A stretch of 64,000 nucleotides of DNA from Actinomadura graeca (GTDB lineage Bacteria; Actinomycetota; Actinomycetes; Streptosporangiales; Streptosporangiaceae), in NCBI RefSeq assembly GCF_019175365.1, contig NZ_CP059572.1:3100001-3164000 (forward strand). The letters run 5' to 3'. Both the position numbers and the translations under genes were made by a program. Shown in pieces: positions 3,631 to 6,600 of the stretch (positions are counted from its first letter, which is position 1; the number at the start of each line of letters is the position of its first letter). A model generated the notes under the pieces. It saw only the letters and a list, made by a program, of their open reading frames with translations, was not told the origin of the DNA and searched no databases.

Positions 3631-6600
3631 TCAGGCCGGCAGCCCGGCGGCGGGGTTGGCGGACGTCCCGAACCGCTCCCGGAATCTGCGGATCGACTCC
3701 TCGGTCAGCAGGATCCCGTCGCACTGCATGGGACCGGCCTCGAACCCGAGCTCCAGGAGGGCGTCGACCTGCCGGGAGCAGTTGTCCCAGTCGGCCGGTC
3801 CCACGGAGGGGGCGAGGGCGTCGACCTGTGTCGCCAGCAGCGAGGAGAGGATGCAGCTGGTCATGCCCTCCGGGCTCGACGCGTCGGGGCTGTTGCGCAG
3901 GAACTCCTCGACGCCCTCGGCGCCGACCAGCCGGGACACGACCGCGGGGACGTGCACCAGCTTGGCGATGCGCTCGCCCGCCTGGAGGACGCCGCCCTCG
4001 GCGAAGAGCAGGTCGTGGTGCTCCTCCACGCGGGCGACCGCCAGTTCGCGGCGGTAGCAGGGCGGCACCGAGTCGTCGACGACGAGGGTCCCGGGCCGCA
4101 GCCGCTCGATGTCCAGGACGTCCGGCGCGTTGGTGGCCCCGATGATCAGGGTCGCCTCGTAGAACTCCTCGGGCAGGCTGGACGTCGATCCCATCACGCG
4201 GATCTCGCCCCGGTAGCCGTGGCCGGCGCGGAGCTCCTCGGCGAACCGCTCGATCATGCCGACCTTGCTGTACAGGTCGCACAGCAGGATCCGGCGCGGG
4301 TGCGGCAGCTTGTCCAGCATGAGCCGCAGGGACGCGCGGCCCACCGAGCCGAGGCCCAGGCTGCCGACGGTCTCCTCGGCGAGGTCGCGGCCCGACCGGT
4401 GCGCGATGTTGCGGACGCCCATCATCACCGACGCCGCGGTGGTGTCGTGGCCGGTGGTCACGGCGGGCAGGTCCGTGCGTCCCTCGACGGCCGCGAGGAC
4501 GGCCCGTCCGTAGTCGGTCGCCGAGGCGAGCAGCCCGGTGAGGGACGTGGTCTTCGCGCCGAGCCGTCCCGCCAGCTCAAGGCCGTCGATGATGGTGCGG
4601 ACGAGGCCGTCCCGGTCGGCGTACAGCTCCGCGGTGTTGAGCCGCGGGATCATGATCACGGCGATCCGGCCGAGCCGGGTCGTCATGATCTCCACGAGCA
4701 GGGGCAGCCCGCCGAAGATCTCGTCGAGCATGCCCTCGCCGGCGGACGGGTCGATCCCGGCCTGCTCGAACAGCACCGACGGCATGGCCAGCAGCGCCGC
4801 CGCGTCGACCGGTTCGAGCTTGCCCGCCGCGGACAGGCTCAGCAGGTCGCGGCGTTCGAGGACGAGGCCGTCGCCCACCTCCCGCGAGTAGCCCCCGCCG
4901 TTCCCGGCGGTGCCGTTCGCCGCGGTGCCGTTCGCCGGGGCGCCGTTCGCGGTGCCGTTCGCGGCGGGACCGGACCGGCCGGACGCGGCGGCGGCGCCCT
5001 CCGGCGCCTCCAGGGCGGCCGACAGCTCGGCGATGGTGGGGTGGGCGAACAGGAACCGCACCGTGAGGTGGCGTCCGACCTCGGCCGACACCTTCGACAC
5101 CAGGTTCACGGCCTGGAGCGAGTCGCCGCTCAGGTCGAAGAAGTTGTCGTCGATCCCGATGTCGCCGGCCTTCAGCGTCTGCGACCAGAGCGCCGCGAGC
5201 CGCTCCTCCAGCGGCGTGCGCGGCGGCGCCGAGGCGCGGCCCGCGGCGGCCGGCGGCAGGTCCCGCGCGGCCAGCGCCGCCCGGTCGATCTTGCCGTTGA
5301 CGGTGAGCGGCAGCGCGTCGAGCGTCACGAACGTCTTGGGGATCATGTATTCGGGCAGCTTGTCGCGCAGCAGGGACCGCAGCCCGCCCGCCGTGGGCTC
5401 CTCGTCGCCCGCGGTGGTCGTGAACGCCACGAGGCGGCTGCTCTGCCCGCCCTGGTCGTCCTCGGCGGCGAGGACGACGGCGGCGCGCACGGCGGGGTGC
5501 TCGCGCAGGACCGCCTCGATCTCGCCCAGCTCGATCCGGTATCCGCCGATCTTCACCTGGAAGTCCTCGCGGCCGAGCAGCTCGATGGTGCCGTCGGGGA
5601 GGCGGTGGCCGCGGTCGCCGGTCTTGAACAGGCGCTCGCCGGTCTCCGGGTGGGTGACGAAGGCCGCGGCGGTGCGCTCCTTGTCGCGCCAGTACCCCTC
5701 GGCCACGCCGACGCCGCCGATGTAGAGGTCGCCGGGCACCCACAGCGGGCGGGTGTCGAGCTCCTCGTCGAGGACGTAGACGGTCTGGTTCACCATCGGC
5801 CCGCCGTAGGGGATGCTCGCCCATTCCGGCGACACCTCGCCGACCGGGTACAGGATCGACCAGATCGACGCCTCCGTCGCGCCGCCGAGGCTGATCACGC
5901 TGATGCCGGGCACGAGCCGCCGCAGGCGGCCGGGCAGCGTCAGCGGGATCCAGTCGCCGCTGAGCAGCGCCAGCCGCAGCGAGCCCGGCACGCCCACGCC
6001 GACGCCGTCGGCGTACTCGACGAGCATCCGCATGAGCGCCGGGACGGAGTTCCAGACGGTGACGCCGCCCCGGTCCATCAGCTCCAGCCAGTGGGCGGGG
6101 TCGCGCAGGCCCGCCTCGTCGGGCAGGACCAGCGTCGCCCCGGCCGCGAGCGTCCCGAACACGTCGTAGACGGACAGGTCGAAGCTCAGCGAGGACAGCC
6201 CGAACACGCTGTCGTCCGGGCCGACCCCGTAGCGCCGGTTGACGTCGGCGACCGTGTTGAGGGCGCCGCGATGGGAGATCATGACCCCCTTCGGACGGCC
6301 GGTGGACCCCGAGGTGTAGATCACGTACGCGAGGTCGTCCTGGCCCTGCGCCGGCTCCAGCGGCGTCTCGTCCACGTCGTCGAGGGGCTCGGTGTCGACG
6401 CACAGGCGCCGCACGCCGCCGGGCCAGTCCAGGCGCTCGTCGACGGCCCGCTGGGTGAGGACGAGGCCGGCTTCGGCCTCGTCGAGGATGTGGTGCAGGC
6501 GCTCGCGCGGCAGCGCCGGGTCCAGGGGCAGGTACGCCGCCCCCGACTTCAGGATCCCGAGCACGGCCGCGACCTGCTCCCAGCCCTTCTCCATCACCAC

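Follow-up and report, generated by a model that had tools for sequence, protein, structure and literature searches.

A carmabin-type release domain with an acyl-ACP reductase fold, and altered catalytic residues shared by its closest relatives, in a nonribosomal peptide synthetase of Actinomadura graeca

A window of 64,000 nucleotides of the Actinomadura graeca genome (contig NZ_CP059572.1, positions 3,100,001 to 3,164,000) carries on its minus strand a nonribosomal peptide synthetase (NRPS) gene, at 8352-3631, which starts with an ATG at 8352 (CTGGAGG lies just upstream) and encodes 1573 aa in the order TubC_N - Cy-like - A(Cys) - PCP - TAD, as read from the open reading frame (ORF) and Pfam. 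Its terminal domain (residues 1160-1573; 3634..4875) belongs, almost certainly, to the TAD family, with the fold of long-chain acyl-acyl carrier protein (ACP) reductase (AAR), an NAD(H)-type site and a cysteine. That a family of NAD-binding, Cys-bearing release domains exists is already known: structures are available for the carmabin TAD, which comes from a cyanobacterial pathway. The new finding is that the closest relatives of the window protein share altered catalytic residues in the cyclization (Cy)-type condensation domain and that most of them are also altered in the release domain. It is this co-fixed change of Cy and TAD within one clade that is of main interest, and it bears on the open question of an NAD(H)-binding reductase fold that ends assembly lines with amide products.

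The family assignment was made by sequence and structure comparison. The terminal domain matched a solved homologous domain in phmmer at E 3.7e-97, well beyond chance, showed overall homology to the carmabin TAD (PDB 9E4S, 9E4U, 9E4X, 9E50 and 9E56) and, according to Pfam, follows the last peptidyl carrier protein (PCP) domain of the NRPS with no thioesterase (TE) behind it. A predicted NAD(H)-binding Rossmann site is formed by the turn GLGSVGRA (residues 1333-1340; 4333..4356), recognised in the sequence and the family alignment, and by Asp1359 at the end of beta-2 (4276..4278), which suggests a preference for NAD(H) and occupies a position that is Asp in 111 of 115 family rows and Glu in 4. 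Cys1500 (3853..3855) aligned with AAR Cys294 and carmabin TAD Cys2238 in both sequence and structure comparison, and the AlphaFold model of the domain had a mean pLDDT of 91.8 and a pTM of 0.92. The original prediction, that the NRPS ends in an AAR-like domain instead of a TE or a reductase of the short-chain dehydrogenase/reductase (SDR) type, was thus right as to the fold. Rechecking of positions placed all of the motifs that it quoted where it had put them on the minus strand, namely TTGHDTTAASVMMGV (residues 1299-1313; 4458-4414), the Rossmann turn, LRPGTLVVDDSVPP (residues 1418-1431; 4101-4060) and LFAEGGVLQAGE (residues 1449-1460; 4008-3973), and the profile and structure search of residues 1160-1573 that it had called for returned TAD and AAR as best matches, with a conserved nucleotide-site motif. 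The proposed match to AAR holds for the fold and for the equivalent of Cys294, both present in the terminal domain, but not for the family profile, since AcACP_reductase (TIGR04058) scored 12.4 bits against a cut-off of 449.7. The NCBIfam scores for PigE (NF053554, 30.6 bits, cut-off 850) and SbnB (22.1 bits, cut-off 326.9) were also far under threshold, and an AAR-family profile search of the genome gave 15 weak matches with none above the cut-off, the window TAD being among them at 13.1 bits.

Other candidates were set aside. No Pfam family matched the last 414 residues at E <= 1, the SDR-type R domain (PF07993) included, and no TE was matched by Pfam anywhere in the NRPS. The SDR-type R domain is likewise terminal and releases the chain with NAD(P)H, but has a different fold and no acyl-Cys step. 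Matches to ornithine cyclodeaminase/SbnB, malic enzyme and amino-acid dehydrogenases were weaker, far below those to TAD and AAR, and the FtsH/VCP matches (two FtsH models at about 10 bits) look like short chance matches near GATNAPD..RPG.

The architecture is not unknown among NRPSs, as had been supposed, for besides the solved carmabin TAD a terminal domain has been reported in HcaD and VatR, so that of the earlier interpretation as a whole the fold stands and the novelty of the architecture does not. Excerpts of PMC10949194 describe the terminal domain of HcaD (hectoramide B) as having 434 residues and being 83.5% identical to that of VatR (vatiamide), assign it a presumed role in off-loading by terminal amidation, with ammonolysis suggested and the mechanism then unstudied, and give amide ends for the dragonamides, carmabin A and vatiamides E/F. 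Like the window TAD, the HcaD domain stands directly after a PCP and replaces a TE, but HcaD has an ordinary condensation domain and a predicted N-methyl-valine where the window protein has a Cy-type domain, and the likeness to HcaD and VatR is one of description only. The carmabin entries are connected with HcaD/VatR by inference from the wording of the same excerpts. The carmabin protein belongs to a cyanobacterial lipopeptide pathway, whereas the TAD of the window comes after a module that has a Cy-type domain and presumably activates Cys, within a cluster containing fatty acyl-AMP ligase (FAAL) and polyketide synthase (PKS) genes. No paper on the carmabin TAD structures was found by PDB code or topic in the open-licence literature, which is a weak absence. 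A family protein of Moorena producens JHB (P0264) keeps both the Cys and the NAD motif.

A survey at E <= 1e-3 among the 7988 best candidates scored yielded 114 homologous proteins, with 29-74% identity to the terminal domain, which together with the window domain make up the 115 rows. This set shows almost no variation in Gly-x-Gly-x-x-Gly or in the Asp that follows beta-2. The A domains ahead of the TADs have many different specificity codes, presumably for Cys, Gly, Asn, an Orn-like residue, Phe, Thr and Ser, and the TAD is therefore not tied to cysteine. Only 2 of the 114 homologues, P0051 and P0069, have more than 100 residues beyond the TAD.

The reading favoured here, on which judgement is about evenly balanced, is that the TAD off-loads the chain by way of Cys1500 and releases it, most likely, as a primary carboxamide. 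An enoyl chain made by the FAAL and PKS would probably be joined to cysteine, to judge from the domains, and the acyl-cysteinyl chain would then pass from the neighbouring PCP to Cys1500 as an acyl-enzyme thioester beside bound NAD(H), a transfer suggested by AAR Cys294 and by the disulfide at carmabin Cys2238. The TAD would free the chain without a TE domain, and the product would leave as a primary carboxamide, as is believed for the vatiamide and hectoramide pathways. Several points weigh against this. No assay of a TAD was found in the open-licence literature searched; the amide outcome rests on product structures, and the expansion of TAD as terminal amidation domain is itself inferred; simple ammonolysis leaves a nearly invariant NAD(H) site unexplained; none of 15 cluster-side ORFs compared with Pfam was recognised as an amidotransferase or a source of ammonia; and a canonical release domain stands behind the TAD in both P0051 (SDR-type R) and P0069 (TE).

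Whilst the amide is favoured by family precedent, an aldehyde is favoured by fold precedent, and reductive release, which the original prediction had proposed, is the strongest competitor, less probable but far from negligible. As in AAR, PigE and TamH, hydride from NADH would attack the acyl group on Cys1500, and the chain would leave as an N-acyl-cysteinal, a thiazoline aldehyde or else an alcohol. In AAR the acyl chain is handed by the carrier arm to the Cys and is then freed as an aldehyde by NADPH (excerpts of PMC9594044), and the N-terminal domain of PigE and C-terminal domain of TamH, which are AAR-like, are reported to reduce thioesters, TamH giving product with NADH and none with NADPH (excerpts of PMC8341465; PMC9594044). 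A near-invariant NAD site would be natural in such a reductase and the equivalence of fold and Cys294 points the same way. There are also differences: AAR (PDB 6JZQ/6JZU/6JZY/6JZZ) is a separate long-chain enzyme with 17-19% identity to the window domain and was solved with NADPH (title of 6jzy), whereas TADs carry an acidic NAD(H)-type residue, and the PigE and TamH domains, with a conserved Cys, are fused to transaminases and not to an NRPS, the similarity of PigE to the window domain being weak. Against reductive release, amides are what has been reported from HcaD/VatR-type domains, and a scan of the 15 neighbouring ORFs recognised no aldehyde-processing enzyme. It is improbable that the TAD is instead an on-line NAD(H)-dependent tailoring domain, with the type II TE or another enzyme releasing the product; the arrangements PCP-TAD-R in P0051 and PCP-TAD-TE in P0069, and the TE gene next door at 2794-3624, speak for it, but such extensions are confined to those two homologues and the many A-domain codes argue against thiazoline-tied chemistry.

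The catalytic position is Cys in 92 of the 115 rows and Ser in 23. In a quick tree with a midpoint root the 23 Ser rows form one branch (SH-aLRT 100), amounting to one change, and this branch sits inside a clade of 25 rows (support 100) with the window protein and P0002, the basal order of these two being unresolved. All Ser rows that bear an organism name (8 of 23) are from actinomycetes. The NAD motif and the Asp are intact in the Ser rows, and all 23 also have Ala246, Asp247, Gln293 and Asp295 (domain numbering), positions at which most of the 92 Cys rows carry Gly (85 rows), Ala (90), Glu (82) and Gly (88, with Asp in 4). The window domain has Cys-type neighbours (Gly1405, Ala1406, Glu1452 and Gly1454). 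Relatives from the same genus (L035, L037 and L038) are also of the Ser type; P0005 and P0018 probably come from two of them, so that these two are not independent. Because the closest Cys- and Ser-bearing TADs differ at few fixed sites, the clade is a natural experiment on the roles of the catalytic Cys and NAD.

The Cy-type condensation domain (residues 78-499; 6856..8121; PF00668) has non-canonical catalytic residues. Its best solved relatives are EpoB, in first place, and the bacillamide (BmdB) Cy domain, and each of the 8 solved sequences with a match at E <= 1e-20 either is a Cy domain or includes one (as 6lta and 7ry6 are taken here to do), which indicates Cy rather than ordinary condensation-domain homology. 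The canonical DxxxxDxxS motif, catalytic Asp and Thr are all missing from the window domain: SLLIADSLS (residues 209-217; 7702..7728) has Ser at the position of the first Asp in DxxxxD, Asn425 (7078..7080) stands at BmdB Thr1196, and Glu453 (6994..6996) at BmdB Asp1226 (EpoB D449, PchE D480). The BmdB numbering is presumed, and agrees with the spacing of the two residues in the alignment. EpoB and BmdB keep the Thr and Asp, as do two further Cy domains encoded in this genome; a third intended control (L008) had no BLAST match at E 1e-5 and so was left out. The triple of S-x4-D, Asn and Glu occurs in 25 of 25 clade rows. A wider pool of 211 proteins, chosen for similarity to the domains of the window itself (with the best 120 of 871 taken), gave 212 Cy stretches from 120 of the proteins; stretches that covered under about 380 query residues or scored worse than E 1e-25 were left out, for example the truncated P0015, which is counted among the 25. 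The triple was found in 27 of the 212; TAD proteins account for 26, and the other is in P0119, a protein of 1047 aa that has no TAD and may be truncated. None of the remaining 185 had it; Asp was kept in 183 (one Asn, one gap) and Thr in 172, while a change of the first DxxxxD position alone was seen in 12, and also in L006. According to excerpts of PMC8807600, the change Asp480->Ala in PchE nearly abolished product formation, with cyclization hit most, and a change at the Cy Thr can be offset by other residues. Since Glu stands where the catalytic Asp works, cyclization by the window domain is, from its sequence, doubtful. The cysteine may well stay open (N-acyl-cysteinyl) instead of forming a thiazoline, and the co-fixed changes are a warning that, in this case, a thiazoline prediction based only on domain names may be mistaken. 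Excerpts of the lyngbyapeptin and fatuamide papers are relevant solely to what becomes of a thiazoline.

A speculative and rather unlikely extension is that the actinomycete Cy and TAD are one co-adapted termination unit with new chemistry. The Cy descendant (D1226->E, T1196->N, S-x4-D) would link cysteine to the enoyl chain but form no ordinary thiazoline, and completion of the chain would fall to a TAD that depends on NAD(H), most TADs no longer needing the Cys (with Ser and the co-fixed Ala, Asp, Gln and Asp instead) and the window protein and P0002 being the surviving Cys-bearing form from before the switch. If so, the substrate's own cysteine thiol might carry the acyl group or enter the product, in place of the catalytic Cys. 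That catalytic residues are altered in two domains could alternatively mean decaying copies in a clade that is losing function, which is very improbable, the changes being fixed and not scattered (Cy in 25/25; TAD Ser in 23/23 with co-fixed neighbours and the NAD motif intact) and the PKS and two dehydrogenases still 62-76% identical across six loci.

The distribution of the TAD was examined in samples that include the genome itself and in which few candidates were scored per genome. It was found in 4 of 396 genomes of the phylum at E <= 1e-20 and in 7 of 150 of the family at E <= 1e-10, the others than its own being diverged partial matches, and the whole NRPS protein was matched in 4 of 60 genomes of the genus at E <= 1e-300. 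A phage collection gave no match and a plasmid collection gave 3 matching records. A Pantoea stewartii plasmid (L028, 11869-13158) has a stand-alone TAD gene, annotated as a hypothetical protein, with a MupA-type monooxygenase gene on one side and two NRPS genes on the other. A search with this TAD as query found 228 proteins, which are shorter and in many cases probably fragments; the 120 of these that were aligned make 121 rows with the query, with Cys at the catalytic position in 120 and a gap in 1. A diverged branch lies within long actinomycete reading frames, which measure 3501-4640 aa at L022-L027 and L030-L032, and keeps the Cys in all 6 of these 9 loci where the alignment reached the position; L029, left out of that count, has a diverged TAD in a 3925-aa PKS/NRPS hybrid frame.

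The remaining NRPS domains are a TubC_N docking domain (residues 4-55; 8188..8343; PF18563, E 1.3e-14), an adenylation domain (residues 537-1021; 5290..6744; PF00501, E 3.8e-87, plus PF13193, with AMP-binding at 537-888 and the C-terminal part at 944-1021) whose specificity letters DLYNLSLIW presumably form a cysteine code, and the PCP (residues 1050-1114; 5011..5205; PF00550, E 5.2e-14). Neighbouring genes on the same strand encode a PKS with KS-AT-DH-KR-ACP (8408..14011; Pfam), which probably feeds the NRPS, a type II TE (2794..3624; PF00975, E 1.4e-33) and two acyl-CoA-dehydrogenase-like proteins with conserved relatives (1644..2786 and 472..1662). This cassette of PKS, NRPS, type II TE and both dehydrogenase-like genes is conserved in L001-L003, L035, L037 and L038 at 52-76% identity, L002 and L037 being probably one locus. 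The FAAL and ACP occupy 14019..16444, also on the minus strand, as two overlapping ORFs (15044-16444 and 14019-15047), and in L035 an acyl-AMP-ligase/ACP gene with 58% identity lies directly upstream of the PKS. That relative covers both halves in one frame, the split in the window being either a real frameshift or an assembly error. Further upstream (22114-26350, minus strand) is another acyl-AMP ligase gene, accompanied by two genes for DesA-like desaturases and one for an ACP, a set that is taken to resemble an alkyne or polyyne fatty-acid cassette; no relatives of the desaturases were seen in the examined DNA of L001-L003 and the same-genus loci. Ketosynthase-like, O-methyltransferase and FAD-monooxygenase-like ORFs at 28378-40000, assigned mostly by eye with the methyltransferase scanned, suggest a separate aromatic polyketide cluster.
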